Part shown: piece by piece, positions 186-33,315 of the stretch | Numbering within the stretch: position 1 is the first letter of the stretch | Layout: every line of letters begins with the position of its first letter | From: Elusimicrobiota bacterium | GTDB lineage: Bacteria; Elusimicrobiota; Elusimicrobia; UBA1565; UBA9628 | Assembly: GCA_016209035.1 (NCBI GenBank) | Contig: JACQWX010000058.1 | Span: 1 to 64,000 of the forward strand | DNA length: 64,000 nucleotides | Direction of reading: 5' to 3' | Translations under genes and position numbers: made by a program | Notes under the pieces: model-generated | The model's database searches: none | What the model was told of the DNA's origin: nothing | The model's input: only the letters and a program-made list of their open reading frames with translations

Positions 186-200
186 GTTCAATTAATGAAC
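180..200 (+). promoter_or_regulatory. promoter -10 box plus GTTCA-N5-TGAAC operator
   Basis: TAAAAT at 180-185 is a good -10 box and is followed directly by the inverted repeat GTTCAATTAATGAAC (186-200), which covers the ATG at 195. The same arrangement, -10 box then GTTCA-N5-TGAAC, occurs at 32715-32735 in front of the MarR-type regulator gene. Seen: the two sites match except at the second base of the -10 box and in the N5 spacer. Inferred: the regulator represses this promoter, and the mRNA is leaderless or nearly so. Confidence 0.6.
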
Positions 201-3023
201 AAATCCCGCCAGAAATCCTCCGGCCGCTCGACCGCCGCGCGCCCTTCCACCGCCGGACCCTCCCGCCCCGACGCCGTGGGGCGGTTCCTGGCCGTCTTCC
301 AGGACCGGGCGGACGAAACGTTCCTCCTCGACGCCCGGACCGGCCGGACCGGGACGTACGCCGAGACCGGGGCCGCGGCCCGCGCCGCGGCGCTCGAGCT
401 GCGTGCGCTCGGCGTGCGCAGGGGCGACCGCGTCGCGCTGTCTCTGGACAACTCCTTCTCGTTCGTCGAGCTCTTCCTCGGCGTCCTCTACGCCGGCGCG
501 GTCGCCGTGCCCCTTCACCCCACCTTCAGCCGCTTCAAGGCGGGCGACATCCTCAGGGCGTGCCGCGCCAAGGCGATTCTGGTCTCCCCGGACCTGATGT
601 GTCCCGCCATCGCCGAGTCCGGCACTCGGGTCGTCACCGTGCGTCCGGACGACAAGGGGACGGACTGGCCGACGAGAGCGGCGGGACCCCGCGGGGAAGC
701 CGGGCTCGTCCCGTGCGAAGGGGTGGGCGAGGACGACGAGCTGGCCATCGTCTTCACCTCCGGGACGACCTCCGAGCCGAAGGGCATCGGCCACACCTAC
801 CGGGATTTCGTCACCAACGCGGCGCTCCTCTCGGAGCGAGCGGGGCTCGGCCCCGACAGCCGTTTCCTGGGCCTCTTGCCGATGACCTACCTCGGGGGGC
901 ATTACAACCTGCTCCTCATCCCGTTCCTGTGCGGGAGCAGCCTCGTCGTGACCGACGTCTTCGACGCCAAGGGCGCGATCCGCTTCTGGCGGCCTGTCAT
1001 GGAGCACGGCGTCAACACCCTGTGGCTGGTGCCGACCATCATCTCCATCCTCTTGGAGTTCGACCGGGGGCCCGAGGGCCCGCGCTATTGCCGCAAGGTC
1101 CGGCCCACGGTCCTCTGCGGGACCGCCCCCCTGCCGGCCAAGCACAAATCCGCCTTCGAGGAGCGCTACGGGATCCCGATCCTCGAGAACTACGGCCTTT
1201 CCGAGACGCTCTTCCTGACCAGCGACGGCCCGGCCGAGCCCGGCCAGCGCACCGGCGTGGGGCCACTGCTCCCAGGCATCGCGGCAAGGATCGTCGACCG
1301 TCATGACGCGGACCTGTCCCCGGGGGCCGAGGGGGAGATACTCGCGCGCACCCCCTGCCTCGCCCGGGGCTACTACGACATCCGGAAAGGGGACCTTTCC
1401 CCTCTCTCGAAGGAGGATTGGTTCGCGACCGGCGACCTGGGGATCATGGACTGCCGGGGGACGCTGTCCATCACGGGCAGGAAGAAGGACCTCATCATCC
1501 GAGGGGGCATCAACATCAGCCCCTCCGCGATCGAGGAGGCTCTCTCCGCGCATCCGGCGGTGCTGCGCTGCGCGGTCGTCGGGATCCCCCATCGGCTCCT
1601 CGGAGAGGACGTGGCGGCCGTCCTGCGCCTACCACCGGACACGACCCTCGAGGAGGTCAAGCCGAAACTGCGCGAGGTCTGCGAGAAAGCCCTCCCGGCC
1701 ATCTACCGGCCCGCGGCCTACTTCGAGCTTCCGGAGCTCCCCCAGACGACGACGGGCAAGATTCAGAAGAACAAGATCCGGGCCTGGCTCGCGGAGAAGC
1801 TCCAGGAGGACGCGGCGGCCCGGGGGCGCCCAGGGGCGCCCCACCTCGACGCCCGCATCAACGCCGCCCGGTTCTTCGCCCCTTCCAAGGTCGTGGCGGA
1901 AAGCGTCCAAGCGATGTCCATCAAGTACAACAACCGGGTTTACGAGATGCAGCGCCGGGGCGCGGACATCACGGTGCTCTCCTTGGGCGAGGCTTTCTTC
2001 GACATCCCGCTCTACCCCTTCGACGATCTGCCGTTCCCCGCCGGCTACCACTACAGCCACTCGCGGGGCATCCCGGATCTCCGGGAGAAGCTGGCCGAGT
2101 ACTTCCGGGAGCAGTATGACGTCTCGTTCGACCCGGAACTGCAGATCATCATCACGGCGGGATCCAAGGCCGCCATCCACATGTCCCTGATGTCCCTCCT
2201 CAATCCCGGGGACGAGGTCCTCATCCACGAGCCGGCCTGGGTCAGCTACCCGGAGCAGGTCAAGCTCTGCTACGGCGTGCCGGTCATGATCCCGCACGAC
2301 AAGAACGTCTTCCACTTCGAGGAATACGTCACGAACCGCACCAAGGCCGTCATCATCAACAACCCCAACAACCCGTCCGGCAAGGTGTTCAACGTCGAGG
2401 AGATCTCGCACCTGTGCATGCTGGCGGAGAAGTACAAGCTCTTCATCCTCTCCGACGAGGCGTACAGCGACTTCCTGCTTGATGGCGAGCGCTTCGTTTC
2501 CGCCGGCAACATCGACAAGGGGCTGCAGCACACGGTCATCTGCAACTCCATGTCCAAGAACTACGGGATGTCCGGCTGGCGGGTCGGCTACTGCATCACC
2601 AATCCGGCGCTCACCGACCAGATCCTGAAGGTCAACCAGCACCTCCTGACCTGCCCGGCCACGATCCTCGAGCATTACCTCGCCAAACACTTCCACGACA
2701 TCATCCGCATCACCAAGCCCCAGATCGCCAAGGTCGTCCGGCAGAGGGCCGAGATCGCCAAGCGCCTCGACGCCATCGGGCTGCGCAGCCTCCCGGGTAC
2801 CGCCACCTTCTACTTCTTCGTCTCCATCGCCCCGTCCTCCCTGTCTTCCGAGGAGTTCTGCACCCGGCTCCTCGATCACGACCACGTCTGCGTCGTGCCC
2901 GGGCTGGGCTACGGCCGGTCCTGCGACAAGTTCGTGCGCGTCTCGGTCGGAACGGAGAGCCTCGAGCGCATCTACCGCGGCCTCGACAAGATCAAGGCGC
3001 TCATCGATGCGACCAAAGCCTGA
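195..3023 (+). CDS. adenylate-forming ligase fused to class I aminotransferase
   Basis: A 942-residue bifunctional protein. Residues about 20-530 are a class I adenylate-forming (acyl-AMP ligase) domain: P-loop TSGTTSEPKG at 188-197, ENYGLSET, the FATGDLG motif, TGRKKDLIIRGG near 427 and the C-terminal catalytic Lys at 522 (TTTGKIQKNK). Residues about 553-940 are a fold-type I PLP aminotransferase of the aspartate aminotransferase kind, with NNPNNPSG, SDEAYSDF and the PLP Lys at 788 (SMSKNYGMSGWR). Both halves keep their key residues. The substrate is unknown. The acyl carrier protein gene two genes downstream suggests that the ligase loads an acid onto a phosphopantetheine arm and that the aminotransferase makes or aminates it. 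ATG at 195 lies within the operator. The gene heads an operon whose next gene overlaps it by 17 bases. Confidence 0.88.
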   Translation: MNKSRQKSSGRSTAARPSTAGPSRPDAVGRFLAVFQDRADETFLLDARTGRTGTYAETGAAARAAALELRALGVRRGDRVALSLDNSFSFVELFLGVLYAGAVAVPLHPTFSRFKAGDILRACRAKAILVSPDLMCPAIAESGTRVVTVRPDDKGTDWPTRAAGPRGEAGLVPCEGVGEDDELAIVFTSGTTSEPKGIGHTYRDFVTNAALLSERAGLGPDSRFLGLLPMTYLGGHYNLLLIPFLCGSSLVVTDVFDAKGAIRFWRPVMEHGVNTLWLVPTIISILLEFDRGPEGPRYCRKVRPTVLCGTAPLPAKHKSAFEERYGIPILENYGLSETLFLTSDGPAEPGQRTGVGPLLPGIAARIVDRHDADLSPGAEGEILARTPCLARGYYDIRKGDLSPLSKEDWFATGDLGIMDCRGTLSITGRKKDLIIRGGINISPSAIEEALSAHPAVLRCAVVGIPHRLLGEDVAAVLRLPPDTTLEEVKPKLREVCEKALPAIYRPAAYFELPELPQTTTGKIQKNKIRAWLAEKLQEDAAARGRPGAPHLDARINAARFFAPSKVVAESVQAMSIKYNNRVYEMQRRGADITVLSLGEAFFDIPLYPFDDLPFPAGYHYSHSRGIPDLREKLAEYFREQYDVSFDPELQIIITAGSKAAIHMSLMSLLNPGDEVLIHEPAWVSYPEQVKLCYGVPVMIPHDKNVFHFEEYVTNRTKAVIINNPNNPSGKVFNVEEISHLCMLAEKYKLFILSDEAYSDFLLDGERFVSAGNIDKGLQHTVICNSMSKNYGMSGWRVGYCITNPALTDQILKVNQHLLTCPATILEHYLAKHFHDIIRITKPQIAKVVRQRAEIAKRLDAIGLRSLPGTATFYFFVSIAPSSLSSEEFCTRLLDHDHVCVVPGLGYGRSCDKFVRVSVGTESLERIYRGLDKIKALIDATKA

Positions 3024-4026
3024 TCCCCGGCCGGCGAACGCCCTTCCCAAGGGCCGCCCGACGGCCGCGGGCGTACGCCGCGGATGCCGCACCATCGTGC
3101 GCGTCTGCGCCGGGCTCCTCCGCGGGGAGCGCGCCCTCGTCCTGAGCGACCCGGCGACCCGGAGCCTCGGCGAGGCCCTCGCCTCAGCCGCGGCCGAGGT
3201 CGCGCGGGAAGCGGAGCATCTCGTCATCCCGTCCCCCTCCGCGCACGGGACCGAGCCGCCCGCCTCGGCCGCCCGGCGGATGATCGAGGCGGACGCCGTC
3301 TTCTGCCTGACCAAGATGTCCCTCGCGCACTCCCGGGCCTGCCGCGAGGCCCTGGGCCGGGGCGCCCGGTGGCTGAGCCTCCCCGACTACTCGGCAGAGA
3401 CGCTTTCCGGACGCGCCCTCCGGGCCGATTTCCGGCGGCTCTCTAAAGCCGCGGACCGGCTGGCTGAGGCGCTCAGCGAAGGAAAGCGCCTCGAAATCTC
3501 CACCGAGGCCGGAACAAAGTTCTCCTGCTCCATCCGGGACAGGAAGGCCAACGCCGCTCCGGGATGGTGCGCGGGCCCCGGGTCCTTGGCCTCGCCTCCG
3601 GACGCCGAGGTCAACATCGCGCCCATCGAGGACTCGGGCGAGGGCGTCGTCGTGGTCGACGGCAGCATCCCTCACCCTCGGCTGGGCCTGCGCAAGAAAC
3701 CCTTGGCCCTCACCGTGCGCCGGGGACGAGTCGTCAAGGTCACCGGGCCCGACTCGAAGATCCTGGAGGCGCTCTTCGCCGAGGTCGGCGACCCGCGCTC
3801 CCGCATCGTCGGAGAGGTGGGGTTCGGACTCAACCCGCTCGCCAGGCTGCGGGGGTCCATGCTGGAGGACGAGGGGACCGCCGGCACGGCGCATTTCGGC
3901 ATCGGCGCCAACGCTACCCTGGGAGGGGCCAACGCCGTCCCCTTCCACCTGGACCACATCGTACGACGCCCGTCGGTCCGGATCGACGGCCGCCCCGTCG
4001 TTGTAGCCAGAGGCTCTCCCCCATGA
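3007..4026 (+). CDS. M29 (AmpS/NicX-like) metallopeptidase-family protein
   Basis: A 339-residue cytoplasmic protein with the C-terminal signature of the M29 aminopeptidase / 2,5-dihydroxypyridine dioxygenase family: GEVGFGLNP (Glu270), EDEGTAGTAHFGIG (His296) and FHLDHIV (His314, Asp316) would be metal ligands. The Tyr that follows the first His in thermophilic M29 peptidases is not seen; the stretch is HFGIGANATLGG. Peptidase activity is therefore uncertain, and the protein could be a metal-dependent enzyme acting on the product of the neighbouring ligase-aminotransferase. It overlaps the preceding gene by 17 bases and shares ATGA with the following carrier protein gene, so translation is coupled. 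The first 25 residues are weakly conserved-looking and the true start could be slightly downstream. Confidence 0.75.
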   Translation: MRPKPDPRPANALPKGRPTAAGVRRGCRTIVRVCAGLLRGERALVLSDPATRSLGEALASAAAEVAREAEHLVIPSPSAHGTEPPASAARRMIEADAVFCLTKMSLAHSRACREALGRGARWLSLPDYSAETLSGRALRADFRRLSKAADRLAEALSEGKRLEISTEAGTKFSCSIRDRKANAAPGWCAGPGSLASPPDAEVNIAPIEDSGEGVVVVDGSIPHPRLGLRKKPLALTVRRGRVVKVTGPDSKILEALFAEVGDPRSRIVGEVGFGLNPLARLRGSMLEDEGTAGTAHFGIGANATLGGANAVPFHLDHIVRRPSVRIDGRPVVVARGSPP

Positions 4027-4283
4027 ACGGCCCGGACGACGTCAAGCGCAAGGTGTTCGCGTACCTGGAGACCCAGCGGCCCCTTCCCGGCGCGGACGAA
4101 ACCGAGAAACTGCGCTACGACTACCTGGACACGGGCTTCGTGGATTCGGTCCAGGTCGTAGAGCTCGTCATGCAGCTCGAGGACGACCTCGGCGTCCGCC
4201 TCGAGCCGGAGCACCTGCAGTCCGAGGAGTTCCGCACCGTGGGGGGCCTCATCCAGATCATCCAGCGTCTCGCGCGCAGATGA
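4023..4283 (+). CDS. acyl carrier protein
   Basis: A small 86-residue acidic four-helix protein with the carrier-protein motif DTGFVDSVQVVELVMQLE. The Ser in DSV is the expected phosphopantetheine attachment site. The start at 4023 overlaps the stop of the M29-like gene (ATGA). Position between an adenylating ligase upstream and an acetyltransferase-like gene downstream argues that it carries an activated acid for transfer to a sugar, rather than serving general fatty acid synthesis. No phosphopantetheinyl transferase is encoded in the window, so a housekeeping one would be needed. Confidence 0.85.
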   Translation: MNGPDDVKRKVFAYLETQRPLPGADETEKLRYDYLDTGFVDSVQVVELVMQLEDDLGVRLEPEHLQSEEFRTVGGLIQIIQRLARR

Positions 4284-4299
4284 GGCCCGGGACCTCCTG

Positions 4300-6228
4300 A
4301 TGCCGGCGCCAAACCCCAAGCCGCCGCCGTCCCACTACGACTCCGCTCAGCTGGAGGCGGCCCTGCGGTCCGTGGGGGTGCAGGAAGGCGACATCGTGTT
4401 CACTCATGTCGGGCTGGGGTTGTTGGGCTACCCCAACGAGGGCGCCACGGAGGAGGCCATGTACCGCGTCGCGCGCGACGCCTTCATGAGGGTGCTGGGC
4501 CCGCGGGGAACGCTGCTGGCCCCGGCCTACTCCTACAGCTTCTGCCGCGGGGAAGACTTCGACCCGGATGCGACGCCCTCGACCGCCGGTCCCTTCGCCG
4601 AGCGCTTTCGCAAGGAGAGCGGGGGCCTGCGCAGCCTCGATCCCATCTTCTCCGTCGGGGGCCTCGGCCCTGCCGCGGCGGAGCTCCTGCGCGACCTTCC
4701 CCGGGAATGCTTCGGTCCCGACAGCTTCTTCGACCGGCTCCTGCGGGCCGGCGGCAAGCTCTGCAACATCGGCGTGGGCTTCCGTTTCGCGACCTACGTC
4801 CACTTCGTCGAGCATCGGGAGGCCGTGCCGTACCGTTTCCGCAAGAGGTTCCCTGGCTGGGTCTGCGTGCGCGGCCGTCGCGATTACCAGGAATGGCTCT
4901 CCTTCGTGCGCGTCCAGGTGGACAACACCCTGCCGGACCTGCGCAGGCTCCAGACCGCCGCAGCCGCCTGCGGCGGCTTCGCGCGCGCGAGAGTCGGCAG
5001 GGGGGAGGTCACCTGCGTTCGCTGCGTCGACATGGACCGATTCTGCGCCGAGGGGATCCGCCGCGACCCCTGGTTCCTGGCCAGAGGCCCCGCCCTCGAC
5101 CTCGCGGCCGGCGATTGCGCGCGTTGCGGCCCGCAGGCTCCGGCGACCGCGATCCCGGTCACGACATCCGACTCGCGGCCCGAGCCGCTCCTGCGGTCGC
5201 TGGCCCCCCTGCCCGCGTATCCATTGTCTTCGGCCTGCGAGACGGCGGTTGCGCGCCTGGCCGCCGACCTGCCCGTCCGGACGCTGTCGTGCTTCACGGG
5301 AGCGAGGGCCGGGCGCACCGTCGTGCCTGAACGCTGGCTCTGCCGCGACGCATCTCTGGAAGAAGCCGGCGGAAGGACGATCCTGTCCCTGCGGGACCAT
5401 CCGCTCCTGGCGTCCTACTACAGCGCCCCATGCGACACGGAGCTGGAGTTGGCTGAGATCAGGCCCCGCCTGCGCACCCACGCGCTGTCGGAAGCCGTGC
5501 CCCTGGGCGCCGAGCCCGACCACCTCCATTGGTCTCTCTGCGTCAGCGCGGAGTTCCGCGAGGCCTTGAAGCCCGGCCGCTACCGGGCCCGCATCGACGC
5601 CTTCCACCTCTACGGGAGCATGACCGTGGCCGAGGTCCTGGCGGAAGGCGTCACCGAAGAGATCGTGGTCATCGCGGCCCACGCAGACCACCGCGGCATG
5701 GCCAATGATTCCCTCTCCGGCGCCGTCGCGGCAAGCTGCGCGATGCGCCGCCGGATCAAGGAAAGAGGCCGCCAGAGCGTGCTGTTGCTGCTGGCGCCGA
5801 AAACCTTCGGGCTGCCCTGGTATTTCCGGTCGCGCCCAGAGGTCGCGACGCGCGCGCGCGCCCTCATCCTGGTCGAGAGCATGGGCCTCGCCGAAGAGCC
5901 GGTCCTGCAGTTTCCCCGTCAGTCGGAAGGGCCCTGCCACCGGGCCGTCGTCACCGCCCTGAAGGAAGCGGCGCCGGCCTTGACTGAGGCGCGGGGAGAC
6001 AGCGCCTGGCTCTCCGCGGCCGACCTGGCCGACCTTCCGCATGGTCTGCCCGTCTACTGCCTCAACCGCTCTGCGCATCCTCTCGACAAGGAGGCGCCTT
6101 ACCCGGGATTCAGGACCAGTCTCGAAACCCCCGACTTCGTCTCGTTCCGCCATCTGGAAGACTCGGTGGACCTGCTCTCCCGGTTCCTGAGCCGCCTCGA
6201 CTCGTCGGTCGAGCGCCGGAGGAGCTGA
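4300..6228 (+). CDS. AAC(3)-family acyltransferase fused to DUF4910/M28-like domain
   Basis: A 642-residue protein. Residues about 20-270 match the aminoglycoside 3-N-acetyltransferase family (THVGLGLLGYP, LAPAYSYSFC, RSLDPIFSVGGLG, HFVEHREAVPYRF). In polysaccharide loci such proteins acylate amino sugars rather than antibiotics. Residues about 300-640 resemble the DUF4910 / M28-type aminopeptidase-like proteins found in glycan loci: AHADHRGMANDSLSG matches the H-x-x-H...NDNLSG metal-binding pattern. The fusion suggests that acyl transfer and a metal-dependent hydrolase-like step act on one substrate, plausibly the group carried by the carrier protein 17 bases upstream. The downstream gene begins at the last base of this stop codon (TGATG). 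Confidence 0.78.
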   Translation: MPAPNPKPPPSHYDSAQLEAALRSVGVQEGDIVFTHVGLGLLGYPNEGATEEAMYRVARDAFMRVLGPRGTLLAPAYSYSFCRGEDFDPDATPSTAGPFAERFRKESGGLRSLDPIFSVGGLGPAAAELLRDLPRECFGPDSFFDRLLRAGGKLCNIGVGFRFATYVHFVEHREAVPYRFRKRFPGWVCVRGRRDYQEWLSFVRVQVDNTLPDLRRLQTAAAACGGFARARVGRGEVTCVRCVDMDRFCAEGIRRDPWFLARGPALDLAAGDCARCGPQAPATAIPVTTSDSRPEPLLRSLAPLPAYPLSSACETAVARLAADLPVRTLSCFTGARAGRTVVPERWLCRDASLEEAGGRTILSLRDHPLLASYYSAPCDTELELAEIRPRLRTHALSEAVPLGAEPDHLHWSLCVSAEFREALKPGRYRARIDAFHLYGSMTVAEVLAEGVTEEIVVIAAHADHRGMANDSLSGAVAASCAMRRRIKERGRQSVLLLLAPKTFGLPWYFRSRPEVATRARALILVESMGLAEEPVLQFPRQSEGPCHRAVVTALKEAAPALTEARGDSAWLSAADLADLPHGLPVYCLNRSAHPLDKEAPYPGFRTSLETPDFVSFRHLEDSVDLLSRFLSRLDSSVERRRS

Positions 6229-8084
6229 TGGACCTCTACTTCGCCCGAGGCGAGCGCAGCGAGCCCCACGAGCCCAAGACGGCCGGGGGGCGCAAGAGGT
6301 CCCCAGGCGCGGCCGGCGCCCTGCACCTTTGCTTCGACTGGGAATCGTGCGCCGCCTTGCGAAGGCTTGGCCTGGATGCGTCCGCCTGGGAAGATCACAT
6401 CCCCGAAGACCAAGCATCGAGCGCTGCTCGGGAGACCGAAGCTCTCTGCGACGCCTGGTACCGTCTGGAGGACAGGGATTTCACCGTGTTCGAAGGCGTC
6501 TCGCTTGGCAAGGCCTACCGATTCATCATGCTCGGTTTGACGGTCCGGCCGGCGGCCAAGTTCCTGCTGGCCGCTGGAGCCGCCGTCGAGAGGCACGGAC
6601 CCCGGACGATCTGGTGCGAGACCTCGGTCCCCAAGCTCCATCAAGGCCTGCTCCGCTCTCTGGCCGCCCGCCGGCCCGGCTGCCGGATCGAGCTGGTCTC
6701 CCGTCGAGCCGCAAGCCGGGAGGTCTTGGCCTGGAAGCTCCCTGACATGAGGCTTAGCCGGCCCAAGAGGGCGGCCCTGCAGGCGCTCAACGTTCTGGCC
6801 CGCGCCCGATCCGTGACCCTCGGCCCGCGGCCGGTTCTCGTCGCGTCCTACTACTTCTCCTTGGATAACTTCATCCGCCTCCTCGCGGAGGACCCGGGCG
6901 CCTTCCGATGCCTTCTTGTTGACACCCCGAACAAGGAGAAGCTCGACCTTGTCGTTCGAGCCGGCGCCGAGCTCGCGCTGGACCATCGCCGCGAGCCGGC
7001 CTTCTCCCAGAGCCAGCGCGAATCCCTCGCCCGGATGCGGGAGGATTGGCGTCTGGCTCGGGAGGACCGTTCCTACCGGGACAAGCTGTCATTCCGGGGT
7101 ACGCCCTTGTGGCCATCGATCGAGGGGGTCCTAGAGGACTTCTTCCGGACCCAGGCCGAGCCGCTCGCCTGGGCCGCCGCGAGCCTCGACGAGCTCTGGC
7201 GGCGCGAGCGCCCTTCCGCAGCGCTCCTGCCCTACGATGAGATCCCCCTCCAGCACCTGGTCTCGGACATCGCCCGCAAACACGGCACGCCATCGGTCGT
7301 CGCCCTCCACGGCCTGCCGGACTACCTGCCGCCCCCGTTCGCTGGGGGGACGTCGCCGGTCTTCTCGGCATGGGGTCCGACCCTGGCCTCCCTGTGCGCC
7401 GCACCCGGCGCGTGGGGGGACAGGACCTGCCTCGCGATCGGGAACCCGCACTTCGATGGGCACTTGCGTCTCAGACGCCCCGCCCCGCCCAAGGAGGTCC
7501 GGACCATCCTCGTCCTGAGCTGCCCGCCCAGGAACTGGATCATGCTGGCCTCTGAGTCAGAACCGCAGACCTACGCAACCACCGTCTGCGAAGCTCTGAG
7601 AGCCGCGAACGCCCGGGTCGTCTTCAAGCTCCACCCCTGCGAATCGCTGTCCTACTATCTGCGCCTGCTCAAGGACTTCGACCGGATCGAGATCATCAAG
7701 GACAAACCCATCATGGAATGCATGCTGGAGGCGGATATGGTGATCGGGCCGTTCTCGACAGCGCTCATCGAGGCCATCATTCTCAATAAGCCCATCCTGC
7801 TCGCAAAACTCACCCGCACGCCGCTCTCCCCTCCCTTCGACGGTTCCTGGGGGATCAAGCCCCTGAGCTCCGGAGACGAGATTCACGCCGCGGTCACTCG
7901 GCTCCTCAGACATCCGGAGGAAGCCATCGCCGACGCATGCCGCCCCTATGCCCGCATCCTCGAGGAATTCGTGGGGCCCGCCGACGGTCGGGCATCAAGG
8001 AGACTGCTGACGGCGCTCCGGCGCCTGGCCTTGGACGGCTCAGCAGCCGTAGAGCCTGGCGATGCGGCTGCGGTTGATGCCTAG
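6228..8084 (+). CDS. GT-B-like surface carbohydrate transferase (paralogue A)
   Basis: A 618-residue protein resembling surface carbohydrate biosynthesis proteins with a GT-B / CDP-glycerol-transferase-like C-terminal half: VFKLHPCESLSYY near 465 and GPFSTALIEAIILNKPI near 507 form the donor-binding region. It shares the layout and several stretches (MDLYFA, RDFTVFEGVSLG, KLHP, PSTA-IEA) with the protein at 12839-14641, so the two are paralogues and may add related sugars. Residues about 7-15 (RGERSEPHE) match the translation of a common dispersed palindromic repeat and are absent from the paralogue. The 3' end overlaps the convergent methyltransferase gene by 45 bases. Confidence 0.7.
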   Translation: MDLYFARGERSEPHEPKTAGGRKRSPGAAGALHLCFDWESCAALRRLGLDASAWEDHIPEDQASSAARETEALCDAWYRLEDRDFTVFEGVSLGKAYRFIMLGLTVRPAAKFLLAAGAAVERHGPRTIWCETSVPKLHQGLLRSLAARRPGCRIELVSRRAASREVLAWKLPDMRLSRPKRAALQALNVLARARSVTLGPRPVLVASYYFSLDNFIRLLAEDPGAFRCLLVDTPNKEKLDLVVRAGAELALDHRREPAFSQSQRESLARMREDWRLAREDRSYRDKLSFRGTPLWPSIEGVLEDFFRTQAEPLAWAAASLDELWRRERPSAALLPYDEIPLQHLVSDIARKHGTPSVVALHGLPDYLPPPFAGGTSPVFSAWGPTLASLCAAPGAWGDRTCLAIGNPHFDGHLRLRRPAPPKEVRTILVLSCPPRNWIMLASESEPQTYATTVCEALRAANARVVFKLHPCESLSYYLRLLKDFDRIEIIKDKPIMECMLEADMVIGPFSTALIEAIILNKPILLAKLTRTPLSPPFDGSWGIKPLSSGDEIHAAVTRLLRHPEEAIADACRPYARILEEFVGPADGRASRRLLTALRRLALDGSAAVEPGDAAAVDA

Positions 8085-9291: not shown

Positions 9292-9319
9292 GCAAAGGGG
9301 GGATTTGATAGAATCTGCC

Positions 9320-10963
9320 ATGGCGGTCGACCTCTGCCTGGTCCTCCTGCCCTGCTGGGGCATCACCGACATCCCCTTGACCCTGTCCGCCCTCTCGAGC
9401 CGCCTCCGCGGCCATGGGGTCCCTCTGAAGGTGTTCGACTTCAATGTGGAGCTCTATCACCTCCTGTCCCAGGAGAGGCCTTGGTGGGACATCAGCCGGG
9501 GGCTGGACCTTTGGGAGCAGGAATCCTTCATCGACCGCTTCTGGAAAGAGAACCTCCCCGTCATCGAGACTCTCATCGACGACGCTTTGGAGCCCGAACC
9601 GCGGTGGGTCGGATTCTCCCTGTTCGTCTCGAACCGCCTGCTCACGGAGCGCTTCGCCCGTCGGCTCAAAGAGAAGGCCCCCTCGGCCAAGATCGTATTC
9701 GGCGGCCCCGAGGTGGGCGCCATCGAGGACCTCCAGGGGTACGCGGACCGGCATCCTTTCATCGACCATCTCGTGGTCGGGGAAGGTGAGGAGACGCTCC
9801 CGGCTCTTCTGCGCGGCCAGGAGACCCGGCGGATCGTGGCCAACATGGACGGGGTGCGCGATCTGGACAGCCTCCCGCTCCAGGACTTCTCGGACTACGA
9901 TTTCGCCCTCTACAAGGACGTGTACGCCTTCCCCACCTATTCCAGCCGGGGCTGCCCCAACGCGTGCATCTATTGCACCGAGCGGAACTTCGCCGGCCGC
10001 TTCCGCATCCGCTCGGCCGAGAGGCTCTTCGAGGACGTCCAGCGGCAGAAGACCCTCCGGCCCGACCTCAACATGTTCCGGCTCCACGAATCCACGAGCA
10101 ACGGAAGCGTCCCCCAGCTCGAGCGGTTCTGCGACCTCATGGCCGGCGCCTCCCTAGGCCTGCGCTGGGCCATCAACGGCGCGATCATGCGCAGGGAGAT
10201 GAACGACCGGATCTGCGCCAAGCTGGCCAGGGCCGGCTGCCGTTTCATCAACTACGGGCTGGAGACGCCGTCGCACAAGGTGCTTGCGGCTGTGGGCAAG
10301 CGACTGTCGGCAGGAACGAACTTCGACCGCGTCGTTCGCTCCACTCACGACGCGGGAATTGAGGTCGCGCTCAACGTCATGTTCGGCCTGCCGGGCGAGA
10401 CTGAAGCCGACTTCCAGGAACAGCTCGACTTCCTCCGGCGCAACCATCGGCACATCTCGACGATCGCGCCGAGCCTCTGGTTCTGCTATTTCCCCAAGGG
10501 GTCCGAGGGCGCTCGCCATCCGGGAAAGCACGGCATCGACCTGGAGATGGGCCCGTTGTATTGGCGGAGCCCCCATGGGACGAACGACTACCTGGTCCGG
10601 ATGGAGCGGTTCGTGCGCTACACCGACCTGATGCAGGAACTCGGGGTCAAAAGCCTCTTCGGCTTCCCGGCCCTGCCCAACCGCCGTGAATTGGCCGCGG
10701 CCTACTGCCATGAGCTGGTCCGCCGCGGCCATCTGTCCGCCGAAGAGGCGCGAGGGCGCCTTGGTGAGATGCGTCTCCTGGACATGAAGCCCGCTCGAGG
10801 TGAGAACATGCTGAGATCACTGTTGCGGAAGATCATCTACGCGGTGGCTCCGGCCGCCGTCCACAACGCCGTCTCGGAGATCGCCCGGGCCAGGCTCCTC
10901 GAAAGGAGGCTCAACAAGCTCCTCAAGGAGCGCGGGGCGCGGCAGCGATACAGCGATGGCTGA
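9320..10963 (+). CDS. B12-binding-domain radical SAM protein
   Basis: About 547 residues. The N-terminal part (FSLFVSNRLLTERF, FGGPEVGAI, DHLVVGEGEETL) is a cobalamin-binding Rossmann domain. The radical SAM core follows, with its 4Fe-4S cysteines in CPNACIYC (C212, C216, C219). Members of this family carry out methylations and ring rearrangements at unactivated carbons. Here a sugar or lipid methylation is plausible, but the substrate cannot be read from the sequence. I prefer the ATG at 9320 because the protein then starts MAVDLCLVLLPCWG, as the family does; a TTG at 9305 is also in frame. The last eight bases overlap the next gene (ATGGCTGA). Confidence 0.82.
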   Translation: MAVDLCLVLLPCWGITDIPLTLSALSSRLRGHGVPLKVFDFNVELYHLLSQERPWWDISRGLDLWEQESFIDRFWKENLPVIETLIDDALEPEPRWVGFSLFVSNRLLTERFARRLKEKAPSAKIVFGGPEVGAIEDLQGYADRHPFIDHLVVGEGEETLPALLRGQETRRIVANMDGVRDLDSLPLQDFSDYDFALYKDVYAFPTYSSRGCPNACIYCTERNFAGRFRIRSAERLFEDVQRQKTLRPDLNMFRLHESTSNGSVPQLERFCDLMAGASLGLRWAINGAIMRREMNDRICAKLARAGCRFINYGLETPSHKVLAAVGKRLSAGTNFDRVVRSTHDAGIEVALNVMFGLPGETEADFQEQLDFLRRNHRHISTIAPSLWFCYFPKGSEGARHPGKHGIDLEMGPLYWRSPHGTNDYLVRMERFVRYTDLMQELGVKSLFGFPALPNRRELAAAYCHELVRRGHLSAEEARGRLGEMRLLDMKPARGENMLRSLLRKIIYAVAPAAVHNAVSEIARARLLERRLNKLLKERGARQRYSDG

Positions 10964-12838: not shown

Positions 12839-14641
12839 ATGGATCTTTTCTTCGCCGATGCCCGCGACTTGCCGGCCGCGCTACCCTGGAAGAGCGCCCG
12901 CGCCGAGGTCTTCGCCGTGTGTCCGGATGACCTCTCCCACTGGCTCTGCGGCCGACGGGGTCTGCCCGGCGAGATCATCAATGCGGAGTCCACAATCGTC
13001 CCGAGGGAATCCTGGGACGAGGTCGTAGGCCTCTCGACACGGCTGGCGGCCTCCTGGTACAACGACCCCGACGGGAGGGACTTCACGTCCTACCAAGGGA
13101 TCTCGCTCGGATGGCTCCTCGCGGGGCTCTCCTGGAGCGAGACCTTCGGCGGTACCTACAGGTTCGCGGAGTCGGTCCTGCGCCTGTTCCAGGAGCACTC
13201 CCCCAAGACGGTATGGGCCGCCGGAGGCCTCGCTCCGTACAAGAAGGCCTTGGTCGAATCCGCCTGCCGCCGGTTCAAGACGCCGCTGCGCTGGCAGTGG
13301 CTCGAACGGCGCCCCCCGCCGGACCACAGCTTGACGAAGGATTTCTGCAACTGGCCCCTGCGGAACGGAACGTGGCTCAGGTCGCTCCTCAACATGGCCC
13401 CTCGTTCGCCGTTCCGCTCTTCTCCCGAGGGCAAGAAGAGGATCCTCGCATCCTATTACTTCACGATCCACCGGCTCATCGGGGCGCTGGGAATGGAACA
13501 GGACATCGAGCCCGTCTTCTACGATTGGCCCGGCCGCCGCCTTCCCAAGCTCCCCGCATGGAGGAAGTGGCGCTTCTTGACCGCTCCACGCCGCGCCGGA
13601 CTCTCGGAAGACGGCCGGAAAGCGCTCGCTGGGATGTCGCGTCGGTTCGAAGACCTCTCGCGTTCCCGGCGCTACCAGCAGGCCTTCTCCTTCCGAGGGC
13701 TGGACTGCTGGGAAGCGGCCCGCCTGCGGCTCTCCCGCATCGTCGCCGAGGACCTCCCGCTCCTGGCCGACGCCGTGGAGGCGGTCGGCGAGGCGCTTGA
13801 CCGGGAGCCTCCGGACCTCGTCCTGGTCCCCTACGACAGCAGCCCCTCCGAAAGGCTGCTCCTCGAAGCCGCCCGACGACGCGGCATCCCTTCGGCGCTG
13901 ATGGCGCATGGCATCGCCTCCGTCCCCAGGAACCCCATCGAGGATGTCTGCGCCGACCGCCTGCTCGTCTGGGGCCCCGCCATGGCCGACTGCTACGCCG
14001 ACATCGGGTTTCCCAGGGAGCGCATCATCGTCACGGGGCACCCTCTGCTCGACTCCTACCCCGGCCTGACTCGTCGCCCCGGCCCACGTGGCGGTCCCGT
14101 GAGAATCCTCTTCGCCTCGAGCTACCTGCCCATCGAGCGCAACGTCGGTAAGGTGTTGGACATCCTTCGGCGATTCAGCGGCGTCAGCGTGACCTTCAAG
14201 CTCCATCCTGGAGAGCCCCTCGTGCCTTACCAGCGGATCCTCGCCGGCAGGCTCGACGACGGATGCCGTCTGGAATGGCGGCGGCCCATGGAGGAACTGC
14301 TGCTCGAGGCGGACCTCGTCCTTTCGGGGCCCTCCACCGCGGTCATCGAGGCCGCGACGCTCGGCATCCCCATCATGCTCCTGAACCTGGAGCGCATGAA
14401 GCTGGGCCCTCCCTATTACGGCGGCTGGGGGCTCGACCCCATCGAGTCGTTGGAGGAACTGGAGGAGCGTCTCCGGGGGCTCCTGCCGGACCGAGTGCCG
14501 GCGAGCGCCGACTACTCCGGGCTCCTCGAAGCGTTCGCCGGCAGACCCGACGGCCTGAGCACGCGCCGGGCGGTCGACGCCCTCAAGGGCCTGCTGAAGG
14601 TCCGGCCGGCGACAGGGACCTCAGCCACAGCTCCAGGTTGA
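12839..14641 (+). CDS. GT-B-like surface carbohydrate transferase (paralogue B)
   Basis: A 600-residue paralogue of the protein at 6228-8084. It has the same opening (MDLFFA), the same RDFTSYQGISLG block, TFKLHPGEPLVPY near 451 and SGPSTAVIEAATLGIPI near 496. It also has the AHGIASVPRNP and WGPAMADCY blocks seen in CDP-glycerol-transferase-like and surface-carbohydrate proteins. The start at 12839 is two bases after the previous stop. The final 59 bases overlap the convergent gene at 14583-16442. The acceptor and donor are unknown. Confidence 0.7.
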   Translation: MDLFFADARDLPAALPWKSARAEVFAVCPDDLSHWLCGRRGLPGEIINAESTIVPRESWDEVVGLSTRLAASWYNDPDGRDFTSYQGISLGWLLAGLSWSETFGGTYRFAESVLRLFQEHSPKTVWAAGGLAPYKKALVESACRRFKTPLRWQWLERRPPPDHSLTKDFCNWPLRNGTWLRSLLNMAPRSPFRSSPEGKKRILASYYFTIHRLIGALGMEQDIEPVFYDWPGRRLPKLPAWRKWRFLTAPRRAGLSEDGRKALAGMSRRFEDLSRSRRYQQAFSFRGLDCWEAARLRLSRIVAEDLPLLADAVEAVGEALDREPPDLVLVPYDSSPSERLLLEAARRRGIPSALMAHGIASVPRNPIEDVCADRLLVWGPAMADCYADIGFPRERIIVTGHPLLDSYPGLTRRPGPRGGPVRILFASSYLPIERNVGKVLDILRRFSGVSVTFKLHPGEPLVPYQRILAGRLDDGCRLEWRRPMEELLLEADLVLSGPSTAVIEAATLGIPIMLLNLERMKLGPPYYGGWGLDPIESLEELEERLRGLLPDRVPASADYSGLLEAFAGRPDGLSTRRAVDALKGLLKVRPATGTSATAPG

Positions 14642-16442
14642 GGACCTGCCAGAGGAACATCATGTGGTTGTCCGCGGGCCTGCCGGACAGGACGATCTCC
14701 TCGTGCTCCTGGGCCAGGCGCTCCACCTCGACCGCGTCGTAGATCCCGCGCTCCCGGGACTCCCGTGAGCGGACCAAGTCCAAGACCAGCTCCTTGCCCT
14801 TCCCCGTGAACCAACGGTGGGCCGGAGCGTTCCACCCGGTCTTCTTCACCCGGGTACGAGTCGCCTCCGGCAGGATGCCCCTCATGGCCTCGCGCAGGAG
14901 GCGCTTGGTCACGCCATCGCGGATCTTCAGGGCTGCGGGCACCCGGAAGGTGAACTCGACCAGACGGTGGTCGAGGAAAGGCATCACATGGGCGACGCCC
15001 AGAGCGGAGCCGTTGCGGTCGGCAGCCCGCAGGCAGCAGGGCAAGGTCTCCCTGAAGATGTCGTGGTAGGCCCTGTTCTTGAGGTAGCTGGTGAAGACCC
15101 TTTCCATCACGGGCTCGAAGCCCTGGAGCCGGAAGAAATCAGGCTTGAGCGCCGCGGCGTAACGCTCGATGCGCCCGCGGTCGGCCAGGCAGCGCCCGGG
15201 CGTCGAGAGATCCACCAAGCGCTTCAACCCCTCCCTCATCACCGAAACGCTCTTCCGGAACACGGGATGGTCATGCTGGACGATCCAGGCCTCGGTTTCC
15301 TTCTTGAGCAGGGCTTCCAGCCCTGCTGACTGGAGGTCCGCGAAGAAGAAGAAGAAGTATTCGTACTCGCCGGCGTTGAGCTCGTCCCCTCCGAGCCCCC
15401 CGAAGAGAGTCCCGATCCTGGATTGACGCGCCACACCGCACAGGAGGAAGTGCGACAGCCAGGTCGCGGTGGCCACCGGCTCGTCGTGCGCTACGACCAT
15501 CATCCGGACCAGGGCGGCCAGGTCAGGCTCGCCGACCCGCACAGGGATCCACTCCGATGCCGCGGCTTCGAGCATGTCCTTGATGTCGGTCGACTCGTCG
15601 TAGGTCTTGTCGTCGTACACGGTCGACACGGCCCGTTGACGGCCTCCGGCGAGCCTCGCCGCGCAGGCCAGGACGGTCGAGGAGTCCATCCCCCCGGACA
15701 GGGTGAAGGCCGCCGAAGGCGCGACCTTGAGCCTCCTGGCCACGGCGTCGAGGATAAGCTCCCGGTAGCGGCCGGCGAGCTCCTCCTCGGGCTCCTCCCA
15801 CTCCGGCAGGTCTTCCAGCCGCCAATAGCGCTTGAGCGAAACGGTCCCCGCTTGGAGGCTCAGGACGTGCCCGGCCGGCACCTGCCGGACGTCCTCGTAG
15901 GGTGACATCTCCGGGTCGTTGTCGAAGGTGCGGTAGTGGGAGGCGGCGAACAGCGCGAGGAATTCCCGCCGCGTCTCCCGCGACACCCCCGGCAGGGCCA
16001 GCAGGGGCCTCGGCCGAGAGGCGAACGCGAAGAGACCCTCCTTCGCCGCGAAATAGAGCGGCCTGATGCCCAGCCGGTCCCTGCCCAGCCACAGGACGCC
16101 GCGGTCCTGATCGAGGAGCGCGGCCGCGAAGTCGCCGTTGATCCTCGAAAGCGCGCCTTCGAAGCCGTACTGAAGATAGAGGGAGACCAGGAGCTCGGCG
16201 TCCGTGTCCCCGCCGCCCAGCTCGTCGCGGTTGTAGATGAAGCCGTCCATGACGGCCAGCACCTTACCGCAGTCCGCCACGTTGGGGCTCCGAGCGCCGA
16301 GCCAGCCCAGCGCCGTGTCACCCGCGGCCTCCCACCATTCGCAGGCCGGCGGGAAATGGGCGCCCGCGCCCAGAGGCTCGAAGAGGCGCGGTATCATTTC
16401 GCCCGCGCCGGGATGGCTCAACCCGACGATTCTAGAGATCAT
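14583..16442 (-). CDS. asparagine-synthase homologue lacking the Cys nucleophile
   Basis: A 619-residue protein with both AsnB domains. The C-terminal PP-loop synthetase is intact (LSGGMDSSTVL near 248; FGGLGGDELNAGEYEY). The N-terminal glutaminase-like domain keeps its later fold blocks (NGDFAAALLDQ, WLGRDRLGIRPLYF) but begins MISRIVGLSHPG, with no Met-Cys-Gly, so it cannot use glutamine in the usual way. It may take ammonia from another source or use a different amine. In sugar loci such proteins amidate uronic acids. It is the last gene of the minus-strand run, seven bases after the methyltransferase, and its end overlaps the gene at 12839-14641. Confidence 0.78.
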   Translation of the reverse strand: MISRIVGLSHPGAGEMIPRLFEPLGAGAHFPPACEWWEAAGDTALGWLGARSPNVADCGKVLAVMDGFIYNRDELGGGDTDAELLVSLYLQYGFEGALSRINGDFAAALLDQDRGVLWLGRDRLGIRPLYFAAKEGLFAFASRPRPLLALPGVSRETRREFLALFAASHYRTFDNDPEMSPYEDVRQVPAGHVLSLQAGTVSLKRYWRLEDLPEWEEPEEELAGRYRELILDAVARRLKVAPSAAFTLSGGMDSSTVLACAARLAGGRQRAVSTVYDDKTYDESTDIKDMLEAAASEWIPVRVGEPDLAALVRMMVVAHDEPVATATWLSHFLLCGVARQSRIGTLFGGLGGDELNAGEYEYFFFFFADLQSAGLEALLKKETEAWIVQHDHPVFRKSVSVMREGLKRLVDLSTPGRCLADRGRIERYAAALKPDFFRLQGFEPVMERVFTSYLKNRAYHDIFRETLPCCLRAADRNGSALGVAHVMPFLDHRLVEFTFRVPAALKIRDGVTKRLLREAMRGILPEATRTRVKKTGWNAPAHRWFTGKGKELVLDLVRSRESRERGIYDAVEVERLAQEHEEIVLSGRPADNHMMFLWQVLNLELWLRSLSPAGPSAGP

Positions 16443-18426: not shown

Positions 18427-19554
18427 TCATACAGTCTTCCTCCATGTCCAATCCGGAATCAAGAACCCGGGAATCGTCCATCTTCCCTTCACCCTCTTCC
18501 AGATCTCCCTGTTGCGGAATCTCTCGCACGCTCCCGAGAACTCCCTCTCCGAGATGCCGGTGAAGGAGCAGAACCTGCGGATGTCTCCGTGCGGGGTCTC
18601 GTCGCCCTTCTTGCGCAGAGCCGCGATCGCTTCATCGCGGGTCATGCGGCCGTTGCGGATCTCGAGGGAGAGGTTGTCGAAGCTGCGCGTGAACCCGAAT
18701 TTGTGCCACTTGAGATGATGGTGCACGGAGATGAAGTCGTCGTCGATGTCGGCGAAGTCGTAGACGCCGGTCTTGGGTCCTGTTCCCGCCCTGAAGCCGT
18801 GCCTGCGGGCGACCTGGCAGGTCTTCAACGGGTCCCAGGGGAAGTAGTAGCCCAGGAAGACCGCCCGGACCCCCGCCCTTGAGAGCTGCGCCGGCGTCGG
18901 GCCGAAGTAGGGCGCGAGGTCCTTGGCCGTCAGGCCTCCCTTGCCGACCCAGTCCCGCGCCTTCGTGCCGTGCGTGACGCCGTACTTCCGGATCCACCGC
19001 TCATCGAGGGCGAAGCCCCGGGATTCCTCGCGGGTCCCCCCGTACTCGAAGGCCGAGTTCTCGCCCCAGACCACGAGCGGGACGCGGAGCGCGGCCGCGA
19101 TCCGCAAGGGGACGTTGAAGATCGCCATGTGCATGGGGATGGCGGAGCTTCCGCACCTCAAGAAGACCTCACGGGCGAACCGGCGCTCCACCTCCAGGCT
19201 GATCGAGTAGTCGACGTGGTCCACCCCGAGCCGGACCAGATTCTCCAGGTTGGCCCTGCCGATCTCGGTGCGAGCCGGCGGCTTCCAGGTCACGGCCAGG
19301 ACCCTTAAGTCCTGCTCAAGGCAGGCAACCACCTGCCAATGGCTGTCCTTGCCTCCGCTCACCGGCACGAGGCAGTCATATCCCCGGGAGCGCGTCTTGG
19401 CTCGGGCGACGACTTTCCGGAAAGCCCGCTTGCGGGCTTCCCAATCGATGGTCGCGCGGGAGGCGTGCATCGCGCAAGCATTGCATATTCCACCGGGACC
19501 AATCGTGAGATTGGGCCTGGTGTCAGGCAAGACGCATCGAGCGCAGTATCTCAC
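18427..19554 (-). CDS. N-acetyl sugar amidotransferase (WbpG family), copy 1
   Basis: A 375-residue protein with Cys pairs at the N-terminus (YCARCVLPDTRP; CNACAMH) and the ATP-pyrophosphatase loop PVSGGKDSHW near residue 66, followed by family blocks VVWGENSAFEYGG and FLGYYFPWDP. WbpG-type enzymes use ammonia from a HisH-HisF pair to turn an N-acetyl group into an acetamidino group. No hisH or hisF lies beside this copy, so it may share the pair at 33316-34747 or use the neighbouring glutaminase-containing AsnB. GTG at 19554 was chosen because GGAGGA lies just upstream and the family begins RYCxxCVLP. It shares GTGA with the asparagine synthase stop. Confidence 0.82.
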   Translation of the reverse strand: MRYCARCVLPDTRPNLTIGPGGICNACAMHASRATIDWEARKRAFRKVVARAKTRSRGYDCLVPVSGGKDSHWQVVACLEQDLRVLAVTWKPPARTEIGRANLENLVRLGVDHVDYSISLEVERRFAREVFLRCGSSAIPMHMAIFNVPLRIAAALRVPLVVWGENSAFEYGGTREESRGFALDERWIRKYGVTHGTKARDWVGKGGLTAKDLAPYFGPTPAQLSRAGVRAVFLGYYFPWDPLKTCQVARRHGFRAGTGPKTGVYDFADIDDDFISVHHHLKWHKFGFTRSFDNLSLEIRNGRMTRDEAIAALRKKGDETPHGDIRRFCSFTGISEREFSGACERFRNREIWKRVKGRWTIPGFLIPDWTWRKTV

Positions 19555-21380
19555 GAGAATTCCTCCAGGAACATCTTGGCGCACAGAAAATTGAAAAGGA
19601 ATTTGCTTTCGGAATTCGGCAAATCCGGCCGATCCAACAACGCCGCGATTCTCTCGCGCTTGACGTGCTCGAATATTGGGCTCTCCTTGAGGACCTCGGC
19701 GCGCACCGCCGGGTCCTTGACATCCAGGAAGGAGAAGATGGGGGCGTTGAACCCCACCTTTCGCCTGCTCTCCAGGACCGCCGCGGGCACGATGCCCTTC
19801 ATGGCGTCTCGCAGGACCGCCTTGGCCCTGCCGTCCTGGATGAGATGCCTCGACGGGATCGTGTTGCAGAAGTCGAACAGCGGCCGGTCCAGGAACGGGG
19901 AGCGGTTCTCGATCGAGTAATACATGGAGTTCAGGTCGTCCTCGTGCAGGATGACCGGGACCGCCTCGTGGAAGAGCTCGTTGAGCATGCGGTTTCGCAG
20001 GAGGCTGTCCGTAAACCGGGTCTCGGAGAAAGGCTCCGACCACGGAGAACGCAGATAGGACGCGAATCCCGCGGCGTCGAGGTAGATATGTTCTCTCATC
20101 CCTGGATTCTTGATGAAGGCCGCGGGATCGCGGAGATAGGGGTTGCGCACCAACGGCTTGATATGACGCTCCCACGCCGCCCGGGAGGCGGCGTGGAGAG
20201 TCGGCTCGCCGCGGACCTCGTAGAGATAGGCCAGGTGATGGTCGTAGTACCCGGTGAAGAGCTCGTCCGCCGCCGAGCCCGAGACCGAGATGCGGTAGCC
20301 GTGGGACGCCACCGCCTCCATCAGGAGCCAATGCGCGTAGTAGGTGATGGTGAAGACCGGGGCGTCGTGGCAGCGGACCAGCTCCCTCAATCTGGGGAGG
20401 AACTCCTTGGTCTGGACCGGGATCGGCGTGTGCCTGATGCCGAGCTCCCGGACGGAGGCCTCCACCAGGTCGCTCTCCTCGTAGCGGGCGTCGGTGTTGA
20501 CGATGGTGAACCCGTGCACGTCGTACTTGAAGACCCTCTTGGCGGTCGCGATGAGCGAGTTGGAGTCCACCCCCCCGCTCATGCAGAAAGCGAGCGGCAA
20601 GTCCGCGCGCAGGCGCAGCTCCACGGCCTTGATGATCCTCTCCCGGGCGCCCGCCACCGCGGCCTCGCAGGTCATGCTGTCCTCCGGCCGATAGGCCGGA
20701 GTCCAATACCGCCATCGCGTCTCCGAGCCCTCCGGCCCGATCCGCAGACAGGTGGCCGCCGGCAGTTCCTCCAATCCCTCGTAGAAGGTATGTCTCTCCT
20801 TGTAGAGGGCCTTGTAGCCGTTGACCAGGTATCGGCAGAGCTGGTCGATGTTCGGCTTGAGCTTCTGGCCCAAAAGCGCCCCAAGGAACTTCACCTCGGA
20901 CGCGAAGTAGAGGCCGGTCTCGTCACGATGGAGATAGAGGGGCTTCTCGCCGAACCGGTCGCGGCAGAGGTGGAGACTCCCGTCCGCCTCGTCATAGACC
21001 GCGAAGGCCCACATGCCCTCGCACCGGTCGAGGACCCCAGGTCCTTCCAGGCCCCAGGCCTTCAAGAAGACCTCCGTGTCGGATGTCGAGGTGAAGGACC
21101 CCGCCCGCTCCCTGATGGACTCCTTCACCTCGACATAATTGTAGAGCTCGCCGTTCAGGATCATCCAGCGCGAGCCCTCCCGGAACGGCTGGTTGGCGCG
21201 CTCGGCGAGGTCGATGATCTTGAGCCGGCTGTGCAGAAAGTAGACGTGCCTGCCCGAGGGACCGGCCCAATGCCGGGACGCGCGGTGGTCCGGCCCCCGT
21301 CTGTTCATCAGGGAAAGGGCCGCGTCGAGCCTTTCGGGCTCGATGACGCGAGAGCCGAAATACCCCGCTATGCCGCACAC
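19551..21380 (-). CDS. asnB: asparagine synthase (glutamine-hydrolysing), complete
   Basis: A 609-residue class II amidotransferase. The GTG start at 21380 gives (M)CGIAGYFG, so the catalytic Cys follows the initiator as required. NRRGPDHR, NGELYNYVEVK and CRDRFGEKPLY are the glutaminase blocks. SGGVDSNSL near 267 is the PP-loop, and SGSAADELFTGYYDHH belongs to the synthetase domain. In glycan loci AsnB-type proteins often amidate a sugar carboxylate or supply ammonia. It differs from the Cys-less homologue at 14583-16442 in the same operon. It overlaps the acetyltransferase gene by 13 bases and shares GTGA with wbpG copy 1. Confidence 0.88.
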   Translation of the reverse strand: MCGIAGYFGSRVIEPERLDAALSLMNRRGPDHRASRHWAGPSGRHVYFLHSRLKIIDLAERANQPFREGSRWMILNGELYNYVEVKESIRERAGSFTSTSDTEVFLKAWGLEGPGVLDRCEGMWAFAVYDEADGSLHLCRDRFGEKPLYLHRDETGLYFASEVKFLGALLGQKLKPNIDQLCRYLVNGYKALYKERHTFYEGLEELPAATCLRIGPEGSETRWRYWTPAYRPEDSMTCEAAVAGARERIIKAVELRLRADLPLAFCMSGGVDSNSLIATAKRVFKYDVHGFTIVNTDARYEESDLVEASVRELGIRHTPIPVQTKEFLPRLRELVRCHDAPVFTITYYAHWLLMEAVASHGYRISVSGSAADELFTGYYDHHLAYLYEVRGEPTLHAASRAAWERHIKPLVRNPYLRDPAAFIKNPGMREHIYLDAAGFASYLRSPWSEPFSETRFTDSLLRNRMLNELFHEAVPVILHEDDLNSMYYSIENRSPFLDRPLFDFCNTIPSRHLIQDGRAKAVLRDAMKGIVPAAVLESRRKVGFNAPIFSFLDVKDPAVRAEVLKESPIFEHVKRERIAALLDRPDLPNSESKFLFNFLCAKMFLEEFS

Positions 21381-28332: not shown

Positions 28333-28385
28333 TCGGACGTCATCGAGCGGGGGGCGCGCGGAGGATGTCCGTGACGCCTCGGTCG

Positions 28386-31458: not shown

Positions 31459-31478
31459 GCGGTCCTCCCCCTGAACCA

Positions 31479-33289: not shown

Positions 33290-33315
33290 GGTCTGCGGCG
33301 GCGACGGGCTGCGCC

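Follow-up and report, generated by a model that had tools for sequence, protein, structure and literature searches.

A four-gene cassette at positions 195-6228 of the 64-kb stretch of DNA analyzed here (hereafter the window) is real, conserved and partly new, and probably represents a variant of known carrier-linked acylation of surface sugars. On the evidence of its domains and surroundings, we favor, with moderate confidence, the reading that the cassette uses an acyl carrier to decorate a surface-glycan amino sugar; this sugar would most likely be a nonulosonic acid of the legionaminic type, or its precursor. The new part is a fusion of an AMP-forming ligase to an aminotransferase, together with an M29-like partner enzyme; the setting is known in outline from Das et al. 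2014 and from Cj1295. All genes of the cassette lie on the plus strand. The first (195-3023; 942 aa) encodes the AMP-ligase and class I/II aminotransferase fusion, the second (3007-4026; 339 aa) an M29-like/NicX-like metal enzyme assigned by Pfam, a structure model and alignments, and the third (4023-4283; 86 aa) an acyl carrier protein with a Pfam PP-binding match. The fourth (ORF 4300-6228; 642 aa) joins an AAC(3)-type (Antibiotic_NAT) N-acyltransferase domain (4300-5175; residues 1 to ~292) to a degenerate DUF2172/DUF4910 (CA_C2195-like) domain that occupies the rest of the protein (5176-6228). The fusion and M29-like genes overlap by 17 nt, the M29-like and carrier genes overlap at ATGA, and a gap of 16 nt separates the carrier gene from that of AAC(3); these junctions and the Pfam matches confirm the four tightly packed genes that the earlier note had described. 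The fourth gene in turn overlaps by TGATG a gene at 6228-8084 (+) whose product resembles a surface-carbohydrate transferase (a weak match to TIGR04396), and the operon thus comprises at least five genes. Third-position GC was 0.87-0.92 for the three long cassette ORFs. The window runs from base 1 of contig C27 (81 kb), and any genes 5' of position 195 fall outside the contig; the source genome consists of 4.2 Mb in 136 contigs and is 93% complete.

The cassette is not a chance arrangement, since its gene set is seen again in other phyla. In 84,980 species genomes, a scan with two short peptide patterns, which passes over more distant copies, found the fusion beyond the window in a genome from another Elusimicrobia family (G224, locus L048), a gammaproteobacterial MAG (L044) and a proteobacterial MAG (L045). 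All fusion loci also carry an M29-like gene and a carrier gene, and the neighborhood search that the earlier note had called for thus revealed that the orthologs do co-occur. These three genes are direct neighbors in L044 and L045 and keep the order that they have in the window. In G224, the ligase half is 47%, the aminotransferase half 62% and the M29-like protein 44% identical to the window proteins, and AAC(3), carrier and DUF4910 genes accompany them within 7 kb. Among 341 genomes of the phylum, a close M29-like homolog was found only in the window genome and G224. In Planctomycetota, the M29-like gene of locus L046 adjoins an unfused ligase of the same family and is accompanied by genes for a carrier, an HMGL-type aldolase, an RraA-like protein, an MBOAT and a GDSL protein. 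Locus L090 contains the M29-like gene with a separate class I aminotransferase, HMGL aldolase, RraA-like, carrier, MBOAT and GDSL genes; its contig holds no ligase, and the ligase of that genome is encoded on another contig (L047). The acyltransferase slot varies with lineage, being filled by AAC(3) in the window and G224, by LpxD-type proteins in L044 and L045, and by MBOAT with GDSL in L046 and L090. The LpxD-type gene is directly upstream of the fusion in L044 (200.6 bits against an LpxD cut-off of 207), and a protein with a hexapeptide/LpxD N-terminus is encoded in the same position in L045. Judged by gene content, this is one putative loading core with exchangeable transferases. Two large proteins with no Pfam match, of 1290 and 1471 aa, are encoded beside ligase/carrier genes in Planctomycetota (L046 7194-11066 and L047 5109-9524).

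Both halves of the fusion protein retain the residues of active enzymes. The AMP-forming acyl ligase spans residues ~38-530 (AMP-binding, 227 bits; AMP-binding_C, 52 bits), and its P-loop TSGTTSEPKG and catalytic residues E337, D414, R429 and K522 are intact and invariant in eight relatives. The PLP-dependent class I/II aminotransferase spans residues ~566-937 (Aminotran_1_2, 200 bits) and keeps N725, D754, Y757, the PLP lysine K788 and R915, all invariant with the ortholog P0005. In ligases of the NRPS/DltA type, an aspartate in the A4 motif grips the alpha-amino group of the substrate. The window ligase reads LPMTYLGG where amino-acid-activating domains carry this aspartate, and LPM[TS]Y is present in 8/8 ligases compared, the A4 comparison being made with known NRPS/DltA motifs and an alignment that holds no DltA. 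Because the ligase has no A4 aspartate, a plain alpha-amino acid would not be its obvious substrate, which sits poorly with the earlier idea of an aminoacyl decoration. The nearest solved relatives of the ligase are acyl-CoA synthetases, namely malonyl- and oxalyl-CoA synthetases; together with the missing aspartate, this kinship points to a hydroxy, oxo or dicarboxylic acid as the possible substrate for loading. R915, for its part, implies a putative aminotransferase substrate with a free alpha-carboxylate, and the aminotransferase may therefore act ahead of the loading step, or accept a substrate that is already loaded via a distal carboxylate.

Given its acyl-CoA synthetase relatives, the ligase could possibly use CoA as its acceptor. 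The 86-residue protein scored 28.3 bits against PP-binding (cut-off 20.8), the phosphopantetheine serine S42 lies in TGFVDSVQ and is invariant in six carriers, and the source genome yielded five phosphopantetheinyl transferase matches. The AAC(3) domain scored 109 bits against PF02522 (Antibiotic_NAT; cut-off 25) and keeps H168 and E171. An aminoglycoside-resistance AAC(3) was ruled out, the score against the NCBIfam aminoglycoside 3-N-acetyltransferase equivalog being 68 bits under a cut-off of 270. Characterized AAC(3) proteins use acetyl-CoA, and it is conceivable, if rather unlikely, that the ligase makes an acyl-CoA for AAC(3), as its best structural relatives would do, while the carrier serves a separate step such as methylation or reduction of the bound acid. 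However, a carrier gene adjoins the M29-like gene and/or the ligase gene in every module locus; it lies directly 3' of the M29-like gene in three of them (window, L044, L045) and near that gene in L037 and L046. Moreover, known LpxD enzymes take acyl-ACP, and the fact that LpxD-type transferases replace AAC(3) beside the L044 and L045 fusions is the best, albeit indirect, argument for the carrier as acyl donor.

The M29-like enzyme combines features of two known groups. Against PF02073 (Peptidase_M29) it scored 23.4 bits, under the 27-bit cut-off, and a genuine M29 peptidase was ruled out on that score; its module homologs in L045 and G224 scored 19.9 and 18.1 bits, and the one in L044 gave no match. 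Nevertheless, E201, E270, E289, H296, H314 and D316, which are putative metal and catalytic residues, are invariant in five module proteins and four true Elusimicrobial M29 proteins. An AlphaFold model (mean pLDDT 87) is closest in fold to the 2,5-dihydroxypyridine dioxygenase NicX (TM 0.78, E 5.7e-24), followed by the M29 peptidases PepS, AmpS and AmpT (TM ~0.6), and NicX was also the sole PDB sequence match (E 4.7e-13). This closeness to NicX raises the alternative that the enzyme is a NicX-type oxygenase and not a hydrolase, in which case oxidative cleavage would yield the acid. We regard this as distinctly unlikely, since all six M29-type positions are intact, whereas NicX has a histidine at the position of E270 and no counterparts of E289 and H296; conversely, the NicX-type Fe(II) His-His-Asp site is incomplete in every module protein, in which one histidine is a glutamate (E270). 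The model is best read as a putative M29-type metal site on a NicX-like shell, and a hydrolase is the most likely activity. The earlier assignment as M29-like thus holds for the metal residues but not for family membership by Pfam score or for the nearest solved relative. Unlike NicX and the M29 aminopeptidases, the six module proteins form their own cassette-linked clade (support 93/91), within which the tree does not settle the branching order. Distant M29-like domains were also observed fused to PAS-like/GGDEF-motif sequence in Planctomycetota (L093 7178-9646, L096 5627-8779 and similar loci), as if the fold were used there as a sensor; distant Planctomycetota relatives in such fusions or in unrelated settings are kept apart from the cassette evidence.

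The DUF4910 half of the fourth protein is recognizable (DUF4910, 62 bits, cut-off 26.6; DUF2172, 45 bits, cut-off 27) but appears degenerate. The zinc ligands of CA_C2195 (PDB 3k9t) are His189, Asp195 and His324 (PMC4000134). In the window protein, the first two are kept as H464 and D470, and the position of His324 is occupied by R605; furthermore, a conserved PE is changed to PK, a conserved D-E motif is lost, and the protein ends before the C-terminal HTH_47, for which no Pfam match was found. The histidine, the D-E motif and the C-terminal region are all present in five relatives, one of which is encoded on contig C115 of the source genome. The Asp195 position is itself variable, being D in the window protein, L021 and L111 and N in L022, L037 and L113. 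A search of 336 genomes of the phylum yielded no AAC(3)-DUF4910 fusion other than that of the window, and DUF4910 is absent from the proteobacterial loci L044 and L045, that is, from 2/4 fusion loci. The earlier note had assigned editing or trimming to this domain; the replaced zinc-ligand histidine and the lost D-E, PE and HTH elements make such a function unlikely, and this claim was not upheld. An active domain that trims or transacylates would be in keeping with the retained H464 and D470, with the preservation of the domain overall and with the transacylation proposed for the family (PMC4000134), yet it is improbable in view of the substitutions that set the window protein apart from its five relatives and of the two loci that lack the domain.

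The surroundings of the cassette point to an amino sugar. In the same sugar cluster of the window are encoded a LegB-like dehydratase and a LegC/PseC-like aminotransferase (22115-24375, minus strand), a NeuC-type 2-epimerase, an NAD-dependent epimerase, a NeuB-type synthase and a WbuX N-acetyl sugar amidotransferase (28386-32681, minus strand), and a HisF/WbuZ-like protein with a CBS-NTP transferase (33286-35859, plus strand); the NeuC-type and WbuX matches exceed their cut-offs. These nonulosonic genes are 16-30 kb from the cassette and partly on the opposite strand, which counts against the link to the sugar. In L044, LegC-like, LegB-like, NeuD-like, HisH and AglZ/HisF2 acetamidino genes lie directly upstream of the module, and L045 has a WbuX-like gene. 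From this company of sugar genes at the three loci, an acylated amino sugar is the probable product, and a nonulosonic acid that bears an acetamidino group is a plausible form of it. It is also possible to fit a ligase, carrier, aminotransferase and M29-like enzyme into natural-product logic, with a small aminoacyl metabolite or amide as the product and the sugar genes as incidental neighbors, and the top NCBIfam match of the carrier is AmcB of cispentacin biosynthesis, although far under the cut-off. Such a product is nonetheless very unlikely, as the loci of the window, L044 and L045 are in amino- or acetamidino-sugar clusters, those of L046 and L090 contain MBOAT/GDSL acylation genes, and previously described surface-sugar clusters contain AAC(3) and DUF4910 (PMC4000134). 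Flagellin glycosylation was rejected, no flagellin gene having been found in the 93% complete source genome, and a capsule, O-antigen or other glycan is therefore a more likely acceptor than flagellin for the proposed acylation. The sugar cluster of the window also contains two asparagine-synthase-like amidotransferase genes (14583-16442 and 19551-21776), and L044 has two genes of this kind around its cassette. Long minus-strand frames without Pfam matches are present in the window at 26929-28638, 12881-14206 and 18427-20715; the third of these may be spurious, as it overlaps one of the asparagine-synthase-like genes.

Several known systems resemble the cassette in part. Das et al. 2014 (PMC4000134) showed that operons for modified carbohydrates encode DUF4910 proteins alongside aminosugar acyltransferases, NeuB and a carrier, reported fusions from some genomes, and presented arguments that DUF4910 is not a peptidase. 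Operons of the CA_C2195 type, such as CA_C2186-2199, contain DUF2172+DUF4910, an AAC(3)-like transferase, a carrier, NeuB and sugar genes, as is the case here; in contrast, the window protein joins AAC(3) to a degenerate DUF4910 that is devoid of HTH_47, and neither the ligase-aminotransferase fusion nor the M29-like enzyme is present in the published CA_C2195 operon table (PMC4000134). In Campylobacter jejuni, the DUF2172 protein Cj1295 (PMC6321876) is encoded beside an N-acetyltransferase gene (Cj1296/7), and the mutant phenotype indicates that Cj1295 is needed for the di-O-methylglyceric acid, an acyl group, on pseudaminic acid, a nonulosonic acid (Hitchen et al. 2010, PMC3068675). That glycan, however, is carried on flagellin, for which no gene was found in the window genome, and the available portion of the same report does not mention a ligase-aminotransferase fusion or an M29-like enzyme (PMC3068675). 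The Dlt D-alanylation system likewise pairs an AMP-ligase (DltA) with a small carrier (DltC) and an acyltransferase (the MBOAT DltB), and the Planctomycetota versions of the cassette resemble it further in holding MBOAT and GDSL genes. Dissimilar from Dlt, the cassette ligases lack the amino-acid-type A4 aspartate, the cassettes contain the extra M29-like enzyme and an aminotransferase or aldolase, and the window transferase is of the soluble AAC(3) type; no MBOAT is encoded in the initial 12.8 kb of the window, whereas L046 and L090 each have one. The view that no named pathway has this gene set therefore stands for the fusion and its M29-like partner, for which no description was found in the open-access literature, but not for the DUF4910/AAC(3)/carrier clusters (PMC4000134) or for Cj1295 (PMC3068675). 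Carrier-dependent nonulosonic acyl transfer had no direct match in that open-access literature, and the core of fusion, M29-like enzyme and carrier seems not to have been described before as a unit.

In the scheme that we favor, the aminotransferase half would catalyze the interconversion between a 2-oxo acid and an amino acid whose alpha-carboxylate is free (R915), and the ligase half would adenylate the acid and pass it to the phosphopantetheine on S42 of the 86-residue carrier. The AAC(3)-type domain would then transfer the acyl group from the carrier to the sugar amine, while the M29-like enzyme, as a metal hydrolase, would make, unmask or proof-read the acyl unit or its precursor, and the DUF4910 half would be a non-catalytic relic or a docking domain. 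Co-location, the adjacency of the carrier, the amino-sugar setting and the exchangeable acyltransferases support the activation, loading and acylation steps proposed earlier, and the editing step is discarded. More tentatively, and at somewhat less than even odds in our estimation, several phyla have in common a hitherto undescribed loading core (ligase with its aminotransferase fused or not, a new M29/NicX-like enzyme class, carrier) that plugs into AAC(3), LpxD-type or MBOAT transferases; a single unusual acyl group would thereby reach surface sugars of various kinds, and the M29-like enzyme would contribute new chemistry on the acyl unit. Many bacterial surface sugars bear odd acyl groups whose installation is unexplained, and a compact core common to at least three phyla, with swappable transferases, opens the synthesis of these groups to prediction and testing. 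The cassette also gives the M29/NicX-like enzyme class a functional setting and bears on what DUF4910, AAC(3) and carrier genes do within nonulosonic acid clusters.

The window genome contains a second, unfused acylation set on contig C115 (L021, G000:C115, 273-7226). This set consists of genes for an HMGL-type aldolase, an unfused ligase, an AAC(3), a methyltransferase, a carrier, a cyclase-family hydrolase (identified by eye, without a family search) and an intact DUF4910 in which all zinc ligands are present; its ligase and AAC(3) are 42% and 40% identical to those of the window, respectively. In G007, DUF4910, ligase and cyclase-like genes occur together and the AAC(3) gene is on a separate contig. 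The M29-like protein is absent from C115-type sets, and the cyclase-like hydrolase may fill a slot comparable to that of the M29-like enzyme. Lastly, the gene cluster of the window also encodes, at 9305-10963, a B12-binding radical SAM protein that is distantly similar to RiPP and phosphonate methyltransferases and may add a C-methyl group.
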